Origin: a virus
Virus record (IMG/VR): IMGVR_UViG_3300021962_006154
Location: 1 to 64,000 of that record
Strand: one strand, 5' to 3'
DNA: 64,000 nucleotides
The translations under genes were made by a program, and so were the position numbers. The notes under the pieces were generated by a model. It saw nothing but the letters and a program-made list of their open reading frames with translations, had not been told where the DNA came from and did not search any database. Positions within the stretch are counted from its first letter, which is position 1, and the number at the start of each line of letters is the position of its first letter. Positions 6,157 to 41,691 of the stretch are shown in pieces.

Positions 6157-7347
6157 ATGGAAATCTATAACATATCAGACGCTAAGAAATTTATGAACGA
6201 CAAGAAAACTGTTTTTGTGACTGGTGTTACTGGTCAAGATGGCAGCCACATGGTAGACTATCTATTGAAAAATACGGACTATACCATCTTTGGTGGTGCA
6301 AGACGTTTGAGTATCAAGAACCATGAGAACATCAAACATCTTGAAAGTAATCCACGATTTCAATTGATCAATTTTGATTTGAGTGATGCTCATAGTATCT
6401 CCAAGACAATTGAACAAATCAAACCAGATTATTTCATCAACCTAGCTGCTCAAACATTTGTGGGTAGTAGTTGGGATTTCCCAGCCCAAACTTGGGAGTG
6501 TAATACCACTGGCATTATTCACATTCTTGAAGCAATTCGACAACACAAGCCATCTTGTAGATTCTACAACGCTGGTAGTAGTGAAGAATACGGCAACGTA
6601 GCTTATACCCCACAAGACGAAGAACATCCAGCTCGTCCACGCAGTCCATATGGTGCTAGTAAGAGTGCTGCTCGTCAATTGGTAAAGGTATATCGTGAAA
6701 GTTATAACATGTATGCTGTTCAAGGTCTATTGTTTAACCATGAAGGAACCCGTCGAGGTGAAGAGTTTGTTACTCGTAAGATTACCAAGGGTGTATCACG
6801 TATCAAACAAGCACTTGTCAATGGTAAGACATTTGACGCAATTGAACTTGGTAACGTATATGCTAAACGTGACTGGAGTGACGCTGAAGACTTTGTAGAT
6901 GGCATTTGGCGTATGCTTAATCAAGAACAATATCGTGAAGACCTCAAGGATTTACAAACCGTTCGAAGTGGAGAAACTTCAAAGGGCGCTCAAAAAGAAT
7001 TGGTTTCTAAGATTAAAGAATATGTTCTCAGCAGCAATGAGACTCACACCATCAAGGAGTTTGTTGAACTTGCATTCAAACATGCTGGTATTGAAGGTGG
7101 TTGGCATGGTAATGGAACTGCAGAAGAGTTTAGTGTGACACCAGCATGTTTGGAAAAGTATGAAGCTGCTTCAAGTGTGTTGGTAAGAATCAATCCAAAG
7201 TTCTATCGTCCGGCTGAAGTTGACCTGTTGTTGGGTAATAGTAACTTGGCACGAACAGATCTTAAGTGGACCCCAAAGACTTCGTTTGAACAACTAGTCG
7301 CTAAGATGAGTAAAAATGACTTGAGTTTACTCGGACTTACGGTATAA
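6157..7347 (+). CDS. gmd: GDP-mannose 4,6-dehydratase
   Basis: This enzyme converts GDP-mannose to GDP-4-keto-6-deoxymannose, the precursor of GDP-fucose, GDP-rhamnose and related sugars. The 396-residue protein is an extended SDR. The NAD(P)-binding TGVTGQDGSH lies at about residue 22, NLAAQTFVGSSW in the middle, the Ser/Glu region in AGSSEEYG, and the catalytic YGASK follows. The family substrate-site signature NHEGTRRGEEFVTRKIT and the C-terminal FYRPAEVDLLLG block are clear. It is slightly longer than the usual 350-370 residues because of an N-terminal extension and an insert near residue 270. No GDP-fucose synthase is seen nearby, so the 4-keto intermediate must be used by other enzymes. 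Confidence 0.93.
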   Translation: MEIYNISDAKKFMNDKKTVFVTGVTGQDGSHMVDYLLKNTDYTIFGGARRLSIKNHENIKHLESNPRFQLINFDLSDAHSISKTIEQIKPDYFINLAAQTFVGSSWDFPAQTWECNTTGIIHILEAIRQHKPSCRFYNAGSSEEYGNVAYTPQDEEHPARPRSPYGASKSAARQLVKVYRESYNMYAVQGLLFNHEGTRRGEEFVTRKITKGVSRIKQALVNGKTFDAIELGNVYAKRDWSDAEDFVDGIWRMLNQEQYREDLKDLQTVRSGETSKGAQKELVSKIKEYVLSSNETHTIKEFVELAFKHAGIEGGWHGNGTAEEFSVTPACLEKYEAASSVLVRINPKFYRPAEVDLLLGNSNLARTDLKWTPKTSFEQLVAKMSKNDLSLLGLTV

Positions 7348-33722: not shown

Positions 33723-34193
33723 ATGAAATTCATTAGTCATAGAGGAAACTTACAGGGTCGTCATAAGATCAACGAAAACGTTCCATCCGTTATCGAAAAC
33801 GTGATATCAGAGGGATATGATGTCGAAATTGATATTTGGTGTAAAGATGATGTATTATATTTAGGTCACGATGAACCCGTGTGGAAAATTAATGACCAGT
33901 TTTTGAAAAAACATTATACAAGATTACTGATCCACTGTAAAGATGATGCTTCATTGTTCAAATTGAGTTCATTACCAGTATTGGACATATTCAGTCACAC
34001 CAATGATAAATTTACACTATCTAGTAAAGGAAAAATTCTAATAAATCCGCACACAGTTACTACTTATAGAAAAGGCATATTAATGATGCCAGAAATGTCA
34101 AACTATACTGTCGATGAAATTTTACAGTTTGATGGCATAATAAGTGACAACATTAAATTTTATGAAGATTGTTATAACACTTTCGGGAAATAG
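33723..34193 (+). CDS. PI-PLC/GDPD-like phosphodiesterase domain protein
   Basis: This 156-residue protein carries the core residues of the glycerophosphodiester phosphodiesterase/PI-PLC superfamily: FISHRGN with H6 and R7, VEIDIW with E35 and D37, and LGHDEP with H49. LLIHCK and a closing DGIISDN follow. It is shorter than typical GDPD enzymes (about 230-250), so only part of the barrel is present or this is a compact subfamily. I use the ATG at 33723, since the frame upstream is not protein-like. Its end overlaps the nucleotidyltransferase by 32 bases. It might act on a phosphodiester-linked glycan intermediate (inference). Confidence 0.7.
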   Translation: MKFISHRGNLQGRHKINENVPSVIENVISEGYDVEIDIWCKDDVLYLGHDEPVWKINDQFLKKHYTRLLIHCKDDASLFKLSSLPVLDIFSHTNDKFTLSSKGKILINPHTVTTYRKGILMMPEMSNYTVDEILQFDGIISDNIKFYEDCYNTFGK

Positions 34194-34980
34194 TGAACGT
34201 TTTACATCAAAGGGATATCCAATTAAGGCTTTGATAAAGATCGAGGGTAAAAAGATATTGGATTATGTGTTGGACATGTTTCCCACCGTAGAAGACAAAG
34301 ACTTTATATTCATTGTCAGAAAAGATGATTTGTCAGCTAACGCTATTGAAAGGGCCATATTAGAATCCAAGGTGTCAAAGATTGTAGCTATCGACAAAAA
34401 TACACTGGGTCCTGTATATTCGATTTCAAATGCTTTTGACAACATCCCCGATGACGAAGAAGTAATTGTAAGCTATTGTGATCTCACACAAAATTGGGAC
34501 TTTACAGATTTTCTTAAACACTGTCGAGAATCAAATTCAGATGGTGTTGTTGTGACTCACACTGGTTTTGTGCCACATAAATTGTATAACAAGTCATTTG
34601 CATTTCTCACGGTGGATGAAAAGGGTTTTGTATCGTATGTGCATGAAAAGAAACCCATGGAATTAGTAAAACCAAATGAACCAGCATCAAATGGTATCTA
34701 TTACTTTAAGACTGGTAAATTGATGAAACACTATTTCAATCGTCTAATGAATGAAAAGATTTGCGTCAATGGTGAATACTATGTTACTGTTCCTTACAAC
34801 CTAATGATTCAAGATGGACTAAAAGTAACCCAATATGATGCCACAAAATACGCATGTCTTGGAACTCCAGTCGATGTCGAATGTTTTAGATCATGGAAAT
34901 ATATTATTGAAAACAACAATGTTAACGAAAGTAACATTGTGGATGTATACAAGTTTTGGAAAAACTACTTTTCCAACTAA
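34162..34980 (+). CDS. Sugar nucleotidyltransferase-like protein
   Basis: This 272-residue protein has the NTP_transferase fold. The N-terminal strand IVITLSGNSERFTSKGYPIKALIKIEGKKIL is a variant of the GxGxR...PK signature, with GNSERF and a Lys in IKALI. VIVSYCDLTQNWDF holds the catalytic acidic residue, and SNGIYYFKTGKLM matches the sugar-binding region. I use the ATG at 34162 (MKIVITLSG). It would activate a sugar or cyclitol phosphate to an NDP form. It is convergent with a second nucleotidyltransferase and lies next to the cyclase cassette. Confidence 0.75.
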   Translation: MKIVITLSGNSERFTSKGYPIKALIKIEGKKILDYVLDMFPTVEDKDFIFIVRKDDLSANAIERAILESKVSKIVAIDKNTLGPVYSISNAFDNIPDDEEVIVSYCDLTQNWDFTDFLKHCRESNSDGVVVTHTGFVPHKLYNKSFAFLTVDEKGFVSYVHEKKPMELVKPNEPASNGIYYFKTGKLMKHYFNRLMNEKICVNGEYYVTVPYNLMIQDGLKVTQYDATKYACLGTPVDVECFRSWKYIIENNNVNESNIVDVYKFWKNYFSN

Positions 34981-35681
34981 ACGATGTGTTTACTAGATAA
35001 GTAAAAATACTCTTTTGGAGTTCCTAACACTAGAGTATTATTCTCATTGTGTAAATTACCAAAAACTACTTTTTTATCATCATTTATCATATTTCTATAT
35101 GTCTTGCTGAAGTAGTCATCCTCGTAATATTTAAAAAACGTATCTGTGTTAGAAAATCCATAAAATCCAGAACTGGCTACAGAAGATATCAGTATTTTTT
35201 CTTGTATGTCCTTTACATATATGTCATCAGTTAATATGTAACTATATTCATGATTATTTGAAGTAAATATATCGATATATCCATCATACTTATTCAAACT
35301 ATTTGAAATGTGGTGTAAATCTCGTTCATACAATATAGTGTCTATATTATGAAAACATATAGGTCCGTTCACCAATCTATTTTTAAATCTATCAATGCCG
35401 TGTAAGGCGGTTTCACATTGACTTTTTGTATCACCTATAAAGACTAAGTTTTCTTGCGGGATATTATAGTATTTCATTGTATACAAAATTTGATACATGA
35501 AATTTTTATCGTTTTTGTTGGCAACCAAAAATACATTCTTGAACACATTTTGATTTGTCAGATTAAACAATATTTCGGACAATATCGTGTGATTTGCCCA
35601 AGGTAATAGATACTTTGGAATTTTAAATCCCTCGTTGACAAACCGAGAGTATTTACCGGCCATCGTTAGTATAAGATTCAT
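34977..35681 (-). CDS. Sugar nucleotidyltransferase-like protein
   Basis: This 234-residue protein starts NLILTMAGKYSRFVNEGFKIPKYLLPW, a clear nucleotidyltransferase signature (AGxxxRF, PKxLLP). The acidic metal residue lies in CFHNIDTILYERD, and SSGFYGFSN is the sugar-binding segment. It is the last gene of the cassette with the cyclase, SDR and kinase, so its likely job is to convert the phosphorylated product to an NDP-linked donor. It differs clearly from the convergent protein at 34162, so the two probably have different substrates. Confidence 0.8.
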   Translation of the reverse strand: MNLILTMAGKYSRFVNEGFKIPKYLLPWANHTILSEILFNLTNQNVFKNVFLVANKNDKNFMYQILYTMKYYNIPQENLVFIGDTKSQCETALHGIDRFKNRLVNGPICFHNIDTILYERDLHHISNSLNKYDGYIDIFTSNNHEYSYILTDDIYVKDIQEKILISSVASSGFYGFSNTDTFFKYYEDDYFSKTYRNMINDDKKVVFGNLHNENNTLVLGTPKEYFYLSSKHIV

Positions 35682-35685
35682 AATA

Positions 35686-36363
35686 TTAATGCCATTCGCA
35701 TGTTGGAAACAAAACTACATTTTTCAAAACTACATTTTTAGGCAATTCAGATACATACTCTATCATGTTCACAACATCTTCATCTTTCAAAAGTTTGTTT
35801 GTGTCACCACCTGGGTATTTATTTTTCTCATTCCACAAAGGGGTATTTATTCCGCCAGGACAAATTGTAGTGATTAATATATTTTTCTTTATAAGTTCTT
35901 GATTTAAAGACTCAGAAAATCCATTTAGAGCATATTTGGTCGAACTGTATACTGATTGATTTTCTATTCCATGCGTTCCAGATACAGAGCTTATATTCAC
36001 TATTCTACCCTGTTTCATAATTTTCAATGTATTCAGTGTGCAAAAAATGACCCCTTTGATATTTGTATCTATAATGTCATTGATCTCTTGTTCTGAAAAC
36101 TCAGTAAAGGGTTTCATTTTAAATATAGCAGCATTGTTAATCAATAAATCAATCGAATCAAATTTATCGGATATAACGTCAAATGTTTTTTTTATCGACT
36201 CGACGCTCTTCAAATCTGTCTCTATATGCAAATAATTTTTACTGGAAAAATCAACTTTGTTTCTAGAAAGCCCTATCACATTCCATTTCTTTGACAAGAA
36301 CTTTTCGACCGCCTTTTTTCCAACACCACTGCTAACTCCTGTTATTATTACTGTTTTTTTCAT
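35686..36363 (-). CDS. Short-chain dehydrogenase/reductase
   Basis: This is a 225-residue classical SDR. The NAD(P)-binding TGVSSGVGKKA lies at residues 8-18, LLINNAAI follows, the catalytic Ser is in VNISSVSGTHG, and Tyr/Lys are in SVYSSTKYALNG. After these comes CPGGINTPLW. All three catalytic residues are present and the length is near normal. The gene overlaps the cyclase by four bases, so it probably reduces or oxidises the keto group of the cyclase product (inference). Confidence 0.88.
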   Translation of the reverse strand: MKKTVIITGVSSGVGKKAVEKFLSKKWNVIGLSRNKVDFSSKNYLHIETDLKSVESIKKTFDVISDKFDSIDLLINNAAIFKMKPFTEFSEQEINDIIDTNIKGVIFCTLNTLKIMKQGRIVNISSVSGTHGIENQSVYSSTKYALNGFSESLNQELIKKNILITTICPGGINTPLWNEKNKYPGGDTNKLLKDEDVVNMIEYVSELPKNVVLKNVVLFPTCEWH

Positions 36364-37478
36364 ATAGTTTTAAAAACTTCGATTGCTTTTATTATTTCAT
36401 CATCGGTTAAATCATTTACAAAACTCCCCACACCAATTTTTGTTGGAATAGGCATGTTTTGATTTCCATTTCTATGTTTAGTAGCATCATTTAATGATTC
36501 TCTCAAAAATGAAAAGTTACAAAAATATTCATGTGCCGTTGGCAAGTCAAGATTTTTTGATGTGTTTATAATTCTTACCAATTCGTCATACGATAAAATA
36601 TTTCTATTATATGATATTATCGAAGAGAATACAACATCCAATGCCACAGCTTGACCATGTTTTAATTCACAATCTGTTCCAAGAGATCGCATTTCAATAA
36701 TTGGACTAAATGTATGACCGAAATCTACAAGTCTCTTTAAATTCTTCTCCCACAAATTATTTTCTAACTCCTCTATCATTCCTTTTATTGACAGATGAAT
36801 AACGTGATCGGATTGTGGATGATTAAACTTGTTGTGCATTATTTCGGAACCATATTTTTCCAAAATACAAAACAGATCATGGTCCTTGATTACCGCCATC
36901 TTAAGAATTTCACCCATACCAGAACTTATGTCACTCAACGTCTGTGTGTATATAAATGATTTGTCTATTAAACTTAGTATTGGTGGATAATACGATCCAA
37001 GTCTATTTCGTCTATTCTTAAAGTTGACTGCGGTTTTAGCTGCGACAGATACATCCACAATTCCCAATAATGTAGTAGGAACTCTTATGTATGGTATACC
37101 TCTTCTATATAACGATGATGCTAACCCAGCTATATCAAGTATTATTCCGCCACCTATACAAATAATAGGTTCACTTCTTCTATTTAAGTTAAAGTTCTCA
37201 ATTTCTTCCAACAACTCAATCAACTTTGAATCTGTTTTTGAAATCTCTTCCGAGTCCAGCGTCACAATTTTTGTGTATATATTGTGATGTTCAAAATATT
37301 GTTTTATCTCGCTTGCAAACAATTTATATATTTTTTCATCGATGACAAGGAATCTTCGGTTTGAAAATACATCCGAATTACAATACAATAAATCCAAATT
37401 ATTCATATTAAAAATCCCCGGAGAGTTTTTAATTTTATAATTTACAGACAATGTAGTATTTATCTCATATTCTGTCAT
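36360..37478 (-). CDS. Sedoheptulose-7-phosphate-cyclase-type sugar phosphate cyclase (2-epi-5-epi-valiolone synthase-like)
   Basis: This 372-residue protein belongs to the dehydroquinate-synthase superfamily. The NAD site is IICIGGGIILDIAGLASSLYRRG (about 105-127), followed by RVPTTLLG, KTAVNF and RNRLGSYYPP. The metal ligands are E190 (GMGEILKMA), H255 (GHTFSP) and H274 (KHGQAVA). True dehydroquinate synthases have a second His in GHTxxHA. Here it is Pro, as in the sedoheptulose-7-phosphate cyclases that make valiolone-type cyclitols. YRRGIPY, RLGxYxPP and AEILKMA-type motifs also fit that subgroup. The likely substrate is sedoheptulose 7-phosphate. The exact product isomer is not predictable. 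It overlaps the SDR and the kinase genes by four bases each. Confidence 0.85.
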   Translation of the reverse strand: MTEYEINTTLSVNYKIKNSPGIFNMNNLDLLYCNSDVFSNRRFLVIDEKIYKLFASEIKQYFEHHNIYTKIVTLDSEEISKTDSKLIELLEEIENFNLNRRSEPIICIGGGIILDIAGLASSLYRRGIPYIRVPTTLLGIVDVSVAAKTAVNFKNRRNRLGSYYPPILSLIDKSFIYTQTLSDISSGMGEILKMAVIKDHDLFCILEKYGSEIMHNKFNHPQSDHVIHLSIKGMIEELENNLWEKNLKRLVDFGHTFSPIIEMRSLGTDCELKHGQAVALDVVFSSIISYNRNILSYDELVRIINTSKNLDLPTAHEYFCNFSFLRESLNDATKHRNGNQNMPIPTKIGVGSFVNDLTDDEIIKAIEVFKTI

Positions 37479-38449
37479 AATAGGATTTTAACATCATTAA
37501 ATAACTTCGATGCTAATATGTAGAAAAATAACATCTTATTTTTGTCAATTTCTTTTTTAAATGGGAGCATTCTTACAAACTGAGATACTTCAAACAATTT
37601 TACACTTATGTATTGATCATTACTGATTGTTTTGCGTAGATGGTCATCGAACAATTTATTCAAATAGTCTACTCCAAAATTATCAACGTTGTTTATAATC
37701 AAATTGTTGTTGACCACATCTATATCTAGGTTATTATATATCTCATATTTTGAATTAGTTGATTGAAATATCTGAGAATACTCTGTTAAAGAAGAGTCGA
37801 TTATGTTTTCTTCGTATGGATCTATGAAGTATAATTTATCATTCTCTTCATCGTATAATAAATTTTCCAATGTTATATTTCCGTGAGTAAAACACTCAAC
37901 TGGATTATTGTATACTTTTTTAAATAATGATGTATAGTTATCCACTTCATAATAAAAAGCGTTTATGTCATAACCATTAACATTAACTGTTTTATGTTTG
38001 ACAAACTGTAAAAATATATCATCAATTATAGCATCATTTAACTTCTGTAATACTTCTTCTTTTATGTATAGATCGAGAGAGTTCGTGTTAGATTTCAATT
38101 TAACAGAATGAAGTCTGTTCATCGACGATAATAGATTTTCTAGAAATATTTCAATCTTTTTGGGATCGGTGGTTGAACATACAAACTTATGTGCTGATAT
38201 GGCGTTTTCTAAATACTCCATATCAAAATATGCAATGTCTTCTTCTAATCCGTATGATATTAACTCTGGAAACAAATTTGGAAACAATGAGTTATATCTC
38301 TGAATCTTTTTAAGTTGCGAATACCATCTTTGAAATCCATATTCTCTATTGTGTAACACCGAAACTTCTTTTCTCACATATGTTTTTTTGTCATCCTTGA
38401 TGAGATATACGCCGCTTAATGATCCGCCTTTGAGTTTTATCTTTTCCAT
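37475..38449 (-). CDS. APH-like kinase (phosphotransferase family)
   Basis: This is a 324-residue protein of the aminoglycoside phosphotransferase/choline kinase fold. An ATP-binding N-lobe contains GVYLIKDDKKTYVRKEVS. The catalytic loop FTHGNITLENLLY is at 187-199, and the metal-binding Asp is at 210 in YFIDPYEE. The usual HGD is HGN (N191), so the catalytic base is changed. The enzyme may be inactive or use an altered mechanism. It lies between the cyclase (four-base overlap) and a GT61-like gene, so it is a candidate cyclitol kinase. Confidence 0.75.
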   Translation of the reverse strand: MEKIKLKGGSLSGVYLIKDDKKTYVRKEVSVLHNREYGFQRWYSQLKKIQRYNSLFPNLFPELISYGLEEDIAYFDMEYLENAISAHKFVCSTTDPKKIEIFLENLLSSMNRLHSVKLKSNTNSLDLYIKEEVLQKLNDAIIDDIFLQFVKHKTVNVNGYDINAFYYEVDNYTSLFKKVYNNPVECFTHGNITLENLLYDEENDKLYFIDPYEENIIDSSLTEYSQIFQSTNSKYEIYNNLDIDVVNNNLIINNVDNFGVDYLNKLFDDHLRKTISNDQYISVKLFEVSQFVRMLPFKKEIDKNKMLFFYILASKLFNDVKILL

Positions 38450-38452
38450 AAA

Positions 38453-39460
38453 TTATAGTCTTGATAACATGTGGTCTATGTTTTCCAATCGCCATGGTCT
38501 ATTATTGGTATCACCTACAATAGGTTCATGATCTTCAAGTAATTTAGCATAATCGTAATCATAAAAATTGACGCCCAATCTATTTGCCGAGTCTCTCAAT
38601 ATTGGGTTTGCCCATGGACCATACAATGGATGTGAAATGATGTGATAGTTTGTATTTGGTTGACATACCAATAAATTTATCATAGCAGCACCATTTGTCT
38701 GTATTATATTATTGTATGACTTGAATACTTTGATTTTATCATACATGTTCAAATCATATAGCTCAATTATATCGTAATCGAATTTGGTTTTGATCTTATC
38801 AATCAATTCTAGTTCATTTTGTAAATGTCTATTGTGTCTCCAACCAAGTTTGACAATATCTTGTCTCGAAATATACACACCTTCTTTTTTATCGTCAATA
38901 GTAACCTTGTTTGATAATGTCTTAAAACTGTCATGTATGATACTTGAAAAATATCCCTTATCAGGCCATAGATATACATTACTGGGTATTAACAATCTAT
39001 CACATGTATAATGTTTAGAACCACTTAATACTACCACATCATTCATGTTATTATCAAAATACAAAAGAATAGATTCTTTGATAAATGATACATCCCACAT
39101 AAAGTCAGGAACAATCAACTTTAAATCTGGGATACTTTCTTTTATTCGCATGAAATATTCCAATTTAGGAAATGTTTCTAGAAAGTAATGTAGATAATTA
39201 CCAAAATAATCATCAAACAAAAATAATGATGCGTGAGATAAATGTTCTACCTCTTTGTCAAATGTGAAGTCTTCTTTCACATGAGTTAAGTTTTCATTTT
39301 TTAACCAAGAAGATCGTTTCAACAAATATGCGAAGTCGGTGTTTTCGACATAAATATTTAAAAACTTTGGAAATTCCCGAAAAATGATGCTGGAACGTTT
39401 TTTGAATTCAAACGTATATAAATGAATATCTTTATCAATTATATTTGTGATTCTATACAT
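38453..39460 (-). CDS. GT61 (DUF563)-like glycosyltransferase
   Basis: This is a 335-residue protein with the GT61 pattern. It has LFLFDDYFGNYLHYFLETFPKLEYF near residue 80, CDRLLIPSNVYLWP, then YISRQDIVKLGWRH, and IIQTNGAAMINLLVCQPNTNYHII. These correspond to the H(W/Y)xxxxxP, R, and GAxxxN blocks of the family, which transfers xylose, GlcNAc and other sugars in eukaryotes and is found in bacterial capsule clusters. It lies between the kinase and a GT90-like gene in the same leftward run. Confidence 0.8.
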   Translation of the reverse strand: MYRITNIIDKDIHLYTFEFKKRSSIIFREFPKFLNIYVENTDFAYLLKRSSWLKNENLTHVKEDFTFDKEVEHLSHASLFLFDDYFGNYLHYFLETFPKLEYFMRIKESIPDLKLIVPDFMWDVSFIKESILLYFDNNMNDVVVLSGSKHYTCDRLLIPSNVYLWPDKGYFSSIIHDSFKTLSNKVTIDDKKEGVYISRQDIVKLGWRHNRHLQNELELIDKIKTKFDYDIIELYDLNMYDKIKVFKSYNNIIQTNGAAMINLLVCQPNTNYHIISHPLYGPWANPILRDSANRLGVNFYDYDYAKLLEDHEPIVGDTNNRPWRLENIDHMLSRL

Positions 39461-39464
39461 AAAT

Positions 39465-40592
39465 TTATAAGTTTAGTCTGATGCACATTGTTTCGTATAC
39501 AATTTTACGGATATTTTCCAATGTAAAGTGTGTTTCTGACAAATTATACATATTATCTCTAATAACCTCATACTTCTGAGGGTTATTTTTCATATCTTGA
39601 AGTTTTTCAACTAAATTACTTAAGTCCTTTTTTATTCTAACGTAATGTATATCAGACACTAGTTGATGTTCAGCATAAGACCAAACTGGATGGTCAGTAG
39701 ATAACACTATTCTATTTGACTGTATAAGGTGTGGCACTCTTCCACTAAATCCTCCTGCCCCAACTTCAATCAAATAATCAAATTGTGTAATCTGATCTTC
39801 TAGTGTCATATATTCATTGTATATGAATTGATTTGAAAAGTCTTTATTTGCCGGAGGACAATAATTTGGTATCCCTACCCACTGTTTTGCATCAATCATA
39901 TCAAAATTGTCATGGGATAACTTGACAAGTAAGTATCTTTGATGACAGTTCATAGATCCACGCCATCCAACTTTTTGTTGAAGGCCTCGGTGATGTTTAG
40001 CGTATTCTTTTTTAAACTTGATTAGATTCTTAAAATTAACACCAAAGAAATTGTTATAAGCACACGTTGGTAAAACTGACAAAGTATTATTGACCAATAA
40101 ACCACGATTGTAATGATATGGTAGTGTCAATTTTTTAACATCCGGCATATATCGTTCTGGATTTGGAACGCCCAGATCGGGTTCATAATTCTTAAATTCA
40201 AAGTTATAATACGCAGTAGTAAATACTGGAATTTTGATATTTTCTAACATGCGGATTGTTGGTCCAGCATCTGCTAAGAAAATTTGTATCCAATCAAAAT
40301 CTTTAAAATTGAATTCGGCATCAACATCATTAAACAACAGAGATGTTTCTGTAGCACGACTGTCTCCATAATGACCATATTCCATTTTGCCATTATGTTT
40401 TCTGACAAACAACGTCGAGGCCTGATAATATTCTGGATTAATCGGCCCCCAATAGTGAGGTGCATAATTTTCCAATTCCCATCCTATATCTTCCAACGAT
40501 CTATACGACTTGTTGATTGTTTTATCGTGACACAAAGTTAAGTCACCATGCCATTTTAGAGGATTTGAATTAAAATGAATTACTTCTGACAT
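39465..40592 (-). CDS. GT90 (CAP10)-like glycosyltransferase
   Basis: This protein of about 375 residues has a C-terminal region that fits the GT90/CAP10 family. GWRGSMNCHQRYLLVKLS corresponds to the FRGS....R motif. ITQFDYLIEVGAGGFSGRVPHLIQSNRIVLSTDHPVW, then HYVRIKKDLSNLVEKLQDM, match the typical YKYxxxxxGxxxSxRxxxLLxSxSxxL and HYVPxxxDLSDL blocks. I use the ATG at 40592, four bases after the radical SAM gene, not the GTG at 40613. Family members transfer xylose or glucose. The specificity here is unknown. Confidence 0.75.
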   Translation of the reverse strand: MSEVIHFNSNPLKWHGDLTLCHDKTINKSYRSLEDIGWELENYAPHYWGPINPEYYQASTLFVRKHNGKMEYGHYGDSRATETSLLFNDVDAEFNFKDFDWIQIFLADAGPTIRMLENIKIPVFTTAYYNFEFKNYEPDLGVPNPERYMPDVKKLTLPYHYNRGLLVNNTLSVLPTCAYNNFFGVNFKNLIKFKKEYAKHHRGLQQKVGWRGSMNCHQRYLLVKLSHDNFDMIDAKQWVGIPNYCPPANKDFSNQFIYNEYMTLEDQITQFDYLIEVGAGGFSGRVPHLIQSNRIVLSTDHPVWSYAEHQLVSDIHYVRIKKDLSNLVEKLQDMKNNPQKYEVIRDNMYNLSETHFTLENIRKIVYETMCIRLNL

Positions 40593-40596
40593 AACT

Positions 40597-41691
40597 TTAT
40601 TTTCTGAACTCACTTAGGTTACCAAAATCGATGAATTCATAATCATATGTTTGATTAACTATTTTCAGAAATTCACTATGTTCTGGATGATGTTTATCAA
40701 ATATATTGTGGACTTTAAACTCTTCTTCGGAGTATGTTCCCCAGTTATCAATTCTTGACAAATAACAGTGAAAATTGTATTTTTTTGCTATATCAATAAA
40801 AAGCGGGATTTCCTTGTAGTTTTTCTGTTGACAAACAAAATCTAATCTAACATACCACAATTTCTTTTCATCAAAAAGACGTTTGACAAATTGCAAATTG
40901 TTCATGAGTTTATTCCAGTCTCCACCTCGTCTGGTGTAATTGTATGTTTCTTCAGTTCCGGCATCCAAACTAATTACAGCTGTTATACAGTTATTGTGTA
41001 GGTTCTTCATTTTGTTCCAGTTTTCTTCTGTAAAAAGAACGCCGTTTGTTTGAAACTGAAATTGTAACAATGGATTTTTGATACCATCAAATGAAGTAAT
41101 AAGTTCCCAAAACAACCTACTAGCAAATGGGTCTCCAGATCCAGTTATATTGACACATGTTTTTGTCTTACATGTATACAAATATTCAATCAAATTTTTC
41201 TGATGCGCTAGTTTATACAAATATAATTCACTGTCGCTTTTTTCGGTCAAAAATTCAAAATCTTTTCTGCAACTTGGACATTTTAAATTGCAACTTTTGT
41301 CATAACATAGATTGATATAGTTTGGATAATCAGAATGTAATTCTTTGGTCAGATATATATTCTTTTTTTCTTCTCCATGTTTTCCAGAAATTACATCGTC
41401 CACATCTGGCAAATTGTTATTCTGTATCCAAGGACATAGTGTTTTATTGCAATATTTGTAACTACCATCTAAAATTGATTGTCTAAATTTCTTTGCTTTA
41501 TCACTATTCCACACATCATTAAATTTGATATCTTTGTCAATTTTGCCAAAATGATATCTGTTTATCCAATTTGAACAACATGGATAAACAACATCTTCAG
41601 TGTATTCTGTTGGTAATCTGTGTGTTTGTCCAGGTCCAATTTCTAGATGGTCCCATGGTTTGAAACAAAACTTTTTAGACAAATCTTTCAT
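40597..41691 (-). CDS. Radical SAM protein
   Basis: This 364-residue protein has the 4Fe-4S radical SAM motif CNLKCPSC with C134, C138 and C141. It is followed by the SAM-binding NITGSGDPFAS and VISLDAGTEETYNYTRRGG on later strands. Upstream, residues 1-100 hold several more cysteines (KFCFKPWDHLE, YPCCSNW, KYCNKTLCPW), which may bind a second cluster as in SPASM-type enzymes, but placed at the N-terminus. Similar proteins occur beside glycosyltransferases in aquatic phages and bacteria. The reaction is unknown. The phage IscU could supply its clusters. Confidence 0.85.
   Translation of the reverse strand: MKDLSKKFCFKPWDHLEIGPGQTHRLPTEYTEDVVYPCCSNWINRYHFGKIDKDIKFNDVWNSDKAKKFRQSILDGSYKYCNKTLCPWIQNNNLPDVDDVISGKHGEEKKNIYLTKELHSDYPNYINLCYDKSCNLKCPSCRKDFEFLTEKSDSELYLYKLAHQKNLIEYLYTCKTKTCVNITGSGDPFASRLFWELITSFDGIKNPLLQFQFQTNGVLFTEENWNKMKNLHNNCITAVISLDAGTEETYNYTRRGGDWNKLMNNLQFVKRLFDEKKLWYVRLDFVCQQKNYKEIPLFIDIAKKYNFHCYLSRIDNWGTYSEEEFKVHNIFDKHHPEHSEFLKIVNQTYDYEFIDFGNLSEFRK

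Follow-up and report, generated by a model that had tools for sequence, protein, structure and literature searches.

In the acarbose and validamycin routes of Actinoplanes and Streptomyces, a cyclase, a cyclitol kinase, a reductase and a nucleotidyltransferase yield an activated C7-cyclitol, with cyclase, kinase and nucleotidyltransferase leading to GDP-valienol (PMC9200736). Cyclases of the 2-epi-5-epi-valiolone synthase (EEVS) type are known from bacteria, vertebrates and some algae (PMC4426668), and no report of a viral EEVS was found in the open-access literature. Among phages, ORF053c and ORF052c of RB69 make up one 561-residue nucleotidyltransferase-kinase, for which the authors speculate a role in UDP-arabinose synthesis (PMC6024577), so a phage module for a nucleoside diphosphate (NDP) sugar built on such a pair has precedent. 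Here, we report four adjoining minus-strand genes in a 64,000-nucleotide stretch of viral DNA (positions 1 to 64,000 of IMGVR_UViG_3300021962_006154, hereafter the window, which is nearly all of this 64,534-base uncultivated virus record). They encode an APH-like kinase (KIN), an EEVS-type cyclase (CYC), a short-chain dehydrogenase/reductase (SDR) and a sugar-1-phosphate nucleotidyltransferase-like protein (NTP1), and we think it likely that they form a phage-specific route from sedoheptulose 7-phosphate to an NDP-C7-cyclitol (a carbasugar), which a glycosyltransferase then transfers, most likely to a glycan.

By family assignment and linkage, EEVS, cyclitol kinase and nucleotidyltransferase stand together in the viral cluster as they do in the acarbose and validamycin systems. 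Unlike these, the viral cassette has only four genes with a single APH-like kinase, and is without epimerase, dehydratase or phosphatase; a 2-epimerase of the AcbO/ValD type was found neither in the four genes nor in the Pfam-scanned neighbours, although unannotated neighbours could hold one. By analogy, the viral pathway would be a stripped-down form of the acarbose/validamycin NDP-cyclitol logic. The RB69 pair has in common with the cassette a nucleotidyltransferase followed by an APH-fold kinase, a T4-like phage as carrier and a proposed role in NDP-sugar supply; in contrast to the cassette it is fused, keeps the HGD motif, comes without cyclase or SDR, and serves DNA arabinosylation. NTP1 directly precedes the APH-fold kinase in the main viral clade, whereas in the window it is the last gene instead. 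Synechococcus phages S-SM2 and Bellamy resemble the window in that nucleotidyltransferases, a PI-PLC-like protein, glycosyltransferases and nucleotide-sugar epimerases lie in one block, but both the cyclase and this kinase family are missing from their glycan blocks.

A putative EEVS in a virus

The cyclase matches DHQ_synthase (2.9e-28) and DHQS_C (2.1e-23) in Pfam. Compared with characterized members of the superfamily, it scores highest with ValA (4p53; E 7.8e-84, 284.9 bits), followed by DDGS (3.6e-55, 190.6 bits) and AroB (7.9e-33, 117.1 bits). EEVS and DDGS are set apart by two active-site positions (PMC4426668). The metal ligands of the window cyclase, i.e., E190, H255 and H274 (Glu, His, His), are kept in all viral members. 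We take the two distinguishing sites to be Asp281 and His360 of ValA, a numbering that agrees with the 4p53 chain if shifted by 6. The equivalent residues of the window cyclase are D252 and H335, where DDGS has Ala/Thr and AroB has Asn/Val, and the Asp/His pair is found in all viral cyclases in which the position is covered. AroB and DDGS are ruled out as the identity of this enzyme by the scores, the fingerprint residues and the tree.

The viral enzyme is thus like the sedoheptulose 7-phosphate cyclases in full-length similarity, metal ligands and the Asp281/His360 positions, and it differs from bacterial EEVS in forming a separate viral clade at ~40% identity (alignment A1) with different partner genes. 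The ValA-type score, the metal ligands and the Asp/His fingerprint together point to sedoheptulose 7-phosphate as the most likely substrate, and to a C7-cyclitol rather than a C6 inositol as the predicted product; please note that this evidence does not separate EEVS from its sister enzyme making 2-epi-valiolone.

Conservation and distribution of the four-gene set

We scanned viral contigs separately for relatives of the cyclase (2.9 million contigs), the kinase and the SDR. The window cyclase alone as query returned nothing, and an alignment with bacterial homologues as query returned 62 loci beyond the window, with cyclases 41-58% identical to that of the window. The order NTP1-KIN-CYC-SDR is found in 50 of these 62 loci and KIN-CYC-SDR-NTP1 in 2 of them and in the window, such that NTP1 is the first or last cassette gene in most contigs; NTP1 lies 1.6 kb away in another 3/62, and the remaining 7/62 have at most three of the four genes, several at contig ends. 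From the kinase side, 80 of 121 viral relatives were kept for a neighbourhood check, and the cyclase adjoins the kinase in all 80. It also adjoins the SDR in 77 of 80 viral SDR loci; the remaining three loci are truncated by the contig end. The cyclase and kinase sets combined comprise 93 uncultivated viral contigs from 81 metagenomes.

A sequence-only reading of the window had proposed a self-contained cassette for an activated cyclitol, a proposal that homologues in unrelated, separate contexts would have spoken against; the two linkage counts above are the opposite of such scattering. The clustering it had noticed is real and far beyond chance: these genes lie side by side on dozens of different viral contigs. 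We consider the gene set genuine, conserved and specific; support for the cyclitol reading is good, and its identity is now sharper (a C7-cyclitol and an EEVS-type cyclase). The unit is made up of the four minus-strand genes, which are conserved together, without two plus-strand genes that the earlier reading had included.

The viral cyclases occupy one side of a single branch, apart from the sampled bacterial ones (SH-aLRT 98 and 99 in two trees), and their diversity suggests that they have been in viruses for a long time, with the caveat of a biased bacterial sample. In named phage records the cyclase is absent, with only weak AroB-like matches of <32% identity, several of them to records that are short or look bacterial. 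No bacterial source of the cassette emerged: the 80 bacterial EEVS loci closest to the query, mostly actinobacterial, have no detectable member of this kinase or NTP1 family, and 398 Pseudomonadota genomes yielded no kinases other than distant ones with HGD and, at E 1e-45, no EEVS outside the seed genome; the bacterial scan patterns needed GHTFS or GM(L/I)EEL-type motifs, and GHSF-type enzymes such as ValA may be under-sampled.

Two further genes adjoin the set in some contigs. A RuBisCO-large-chain-like protein (PF00016, 2.5e-43) is encoded directly upstream of KIN-CYC-SDR in three viral contigs (L062:5760-7037, L061 and L066), and a UvdE-type UV endonuclease (PF03851, 1.3e-36) directly downstream of SDR in one branch (L068:9799-10827).

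The partner enzymes

The SDR has intact cofactor and YxxxK catalytic motifs; a conserved Trp-His C-terminus (…EWH) was also seen in most members. NTP1 is too divergent for a single-sequence Pfam call, but its profile matches the nucleoside-diphosphate-sugar pyrophosphorylase 4evw, and the motifs MAGxxxRF and PKYLL are conserved.

The kinase is likewise too divergent for such a call, its best Pfam match being choline kinase at 0.0029, under the cut-off. Its AlphaFold model (pLDDT 93) is matched by Foldseek to 5-methylthioribose kinase and APH(2'')/APH(3') and, among viral proteins, to Bacillus phage G gp311 (TM 0.84) and RB69 ORF052c; the predicted fold is APH/protein-kinase-like. All 60 kinases of a first set and all 80 of a second, overlapping set read HGNxTLEN in place of the APH motif HGDxxxxN, while the Asp of HGD is kept in phage G, RB69 and bacterial homologues outside the cassette; the sequence-only reading had passed over this substitution. 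This is what one would expect if the kinase were inactive or carried out another reaction, i.e., were a pseudokinase or an enzyme of nucleotidyl transfer, in which case the simple kinase-then-nucleotidyltransferase scheme fails. The best PDB match of the kinase profile, the JAK2 JH2 pseudokinase loop (E 0.003), leans the same way, although we consider it a resemblance of motif and not kinship. We regard an inactive or otherwise employed kinase as unlikely, if worth taking seriously, since the glycine-rich loop, the ATP-binding Lys, the Mg-binding Asn and the DFG-like Mg-binding Asp (FIDxY(E/D)E in 60/60) are conserved, the gene accompanies the cyclase in every locus examined, and the cassette holds no other kinase.

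Proposed pathway and use of the product

In the proposed route, the cyclase would convert sedoheptulose 7-phosphate to 2-epi-5-epi-valiolone (or its 2-epi-valiolone isomer), the SDR would reduce the ring ketone to a hydroxyl, which the kinase would phosphorylate, and NTP1 would add a nucleotide to give the NDP-cyclitol; a phage glycosyltransferase may then place the cyclitol onto a glycan, most likely that of the phage particle or of the infected host's surface. The order of steps, the nucleotide used, the stereochemistry and the acceptor are what we infer; the acceptor, which need not be the same in all phages, is probably a glycan.

The enzyme families, the cyclase subtype, the conserved linkage and the GT-A-fold neighbour in most contigs come from sequence and structure comparison. 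The gene that follows the cassette in the main viral clade (L065:9754-10461 and homologues) is without any Pfam match, and the model of its protein (pLDDT 91) has GT-A glycosyltransferases throughout its structural matches. At this place there is a weak GT2 match in another branch, and the window has GT61 and GT90; no homologues of the latter two were found around the cassette in any of the 62 other contigs. The adjacent glycosyltransferases are of types other than pseudoglycosyltransferases, for which no aimed search was made.

Several points weigh against this route. The EEVS class of the cyclase is assigned from 2 of the 14 ValA fingerprint sites plus the metal ligands, Asn replaces the catalytic Asp in every cassette kinase scored, three contigs have no detectable NTP1 beside KIN-CYC-SDR, the adjoining glycosyltransferases vary between phages, and the functions of the cassette enzymes are inferred. 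A more far-reaching version, in which a minimal carbasugar donor serves to decorate particles, DNA or the infected cell with a glycosidase-resistant pseudo-sugar and the cyclitol kinase works without the usual catalytic Asp, is conceivable and, in our view, rather doubtful.

We consider it improbable that the target of the NDP-cyclitol is phage DNA, as for arabinose in RB69, and not a glycan. The nearest viral relatives of the kinase by structure lend this reading some weight: phage G gp311 sits among alpha-glucosyltransferases, a nucleotidyltransferase and a thymidylate synthase, and RB69 ORF052c comes from a phage with arabinosylated DNA. However, the T4-like contigs of 133, 146 and 172 kb lack proteins of the thymidylate-synthase type, to which T4 dCMP hydroxymethylase belongs, making a DNA acceptor less likely; such a base hydroxymethylase was sought in the cassette phages, and TS-family proteins were found in only 3 of 26 records, all outside these large contigs, where they may be ordinary thymidylate synthases. 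The neighbouring GT-A, GT2, GT61 and GT90 proteins also resemble glycan enzymes. As to a free small molecule, i.e., a gadusol-type sunscreen or a glycosidase inhibitor rather than a glycosyltransferase donor, NTP1 and kinase travel with the cyclase, glycosyltransferases adjoin, and the window cassette is without a gadusol-type methyltransferase-oxidoreductase, all of which make it very improbable even though bacteria and vertebrates use EEVS to make precursors of this kind of compound (PMC4426668, PMC9200736). A diverged 3-dehydroquinate synthase for aromatic amino acid synthesis is scarcely credible, for although the superfamily is the same and the NCBIfam aroB model matches at 5.4e-59 (far under its cut-off, 200 vs 305 bits), the ValA-type score and fingerprint and the placement in the EEVS clade contradict it, and the linked genes would be out of place in the shikimate pathway.

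Layout of the locus and neighbouring genes

The genes of the locus are collected in Table 1. KIN/CYC and CYC/SDR each overlap by 4 bases (ATGA), and SDR and NTP1 are separated by a gap of 4 bases; the cassette has a G+C content of 30% against 35% for the window.

Table 1 Genes of the cyclitol cassette and its neighbours in the window
Gene and assignment	Position	Strand	Basis
KIN, APH-like small-molecule kinase, proposed cyclitol kinase	37475-38449	-	324 aa; HGN instead of HGD motif
CYC, EEVS-type cyclase	36360-37478	-	4p53 ValA match; metal ligands E190/H255/H274; D252/H335; tree
SDR, proposed ring-ketone reductase	35686-36363	-	225 aa; adh_short 9.5e-47
NTP1, sugar-1-phosphate nucleotidyltransferase-like, proposed NDP-cyclitol maker	34977-35681	-	234 aa; profile A3 vs PDB, 4evw 7.1e-32
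GT61-like glycosyltransferase adjoining the kinase, candidate donor user	38453-39460	-	PF04577 1.6e-17
GT90-like glycosyltransferase, candidate donor user	39465-40613	-	PF05686 7.8e-8
NTP2, second nucleotidyltransferase, convergent; neighbour outside the conserved core	34162-34980	+	NTP_transf_3 PF12804 2.7e-10
PI-PLC/GDPD-like small protein; neighbour outside the conserved core	33726-34193	+	phrog_34507 6e-26

All open reading frames named in the sequence-only reading lie where it had placed them, and its families are borne out by Pfam matches for cyclase, SDR, GT61, GT90 and NTP2, by the APH-like fold of the model for the kinase, and by the 4evw profile match for NTP1. Its "PI-PLC-like" label is another matter: the open reading frame is present, and the family name is weakly backed, with no Pfam or PDB match, a phrog (phrog_34507) of unknown function and one cyanophage homologue annotated as glycerophosphodiester phosphodiesterase. 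This gene and NTP2 had been counted as members of the unit, which does not stand. Only 3/62 contigs have the PI-PLC-like gene in the vicinity of the cassette, and both genes are frequent in Synechococcus phages (relatives of NTP2 in 18 records and of the PI-PLC-like protein in 16), none of which has the cyclase. NTP2 and the PI-PLC-like gene look like a separate cyanophage glycan module.

The window also encodes a T4-type DNA polymerase, which shares 43% identity with its counterpart in Microcystis phage Mel-JY01, a T4-type clamp loader and a long run of glycosyltransferase-like genes. A radical SAM protein with a SPASM domain lies within this glycosyltransferase cluster (40597-41691), and a nucleotide-sugar epimerase-like gene elsewhere in the window (6157-7347; phrog_540, 8e-68) is a sign of further NDP-sugar metabolism.

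Carrier viruses

Several large cassette contigs encode major capsid, terminase and tail sheath proteins of the T4 type and therefore belong to contractile-tailed T4-like phages. The closest relative of the window cyclase (58% identity) is on a 394-kb contig, where the sheath match is only sub-threshold. The helicase of the main clade is 61-66% identical to cyanophage gp41; despite this, psbA is absent from all 25 contigs tested, including ones of 133-172 kb, and we do not consider the phages of this large clade ordinary psbA-bearing cyanophages.

Implications

A type of cyclase otherwise known from antibiotic and sunscreen pathways is found here in aquatic phages, on what would be a very short route from a central metabolite to an NDP-pseudosugar. 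That a kinase with Asn for the catalytic Asp is always kept with this cyclase is a second question of interest. With a dedicated and repeatedly conserved viral cassette, carbasugars would join the chemistry that phages apply to surfaces or DNA; decoration with a glycosidase-resistant pseudo-sugar would, if true, be a hitherto undescribed chemistry of viral glycans.

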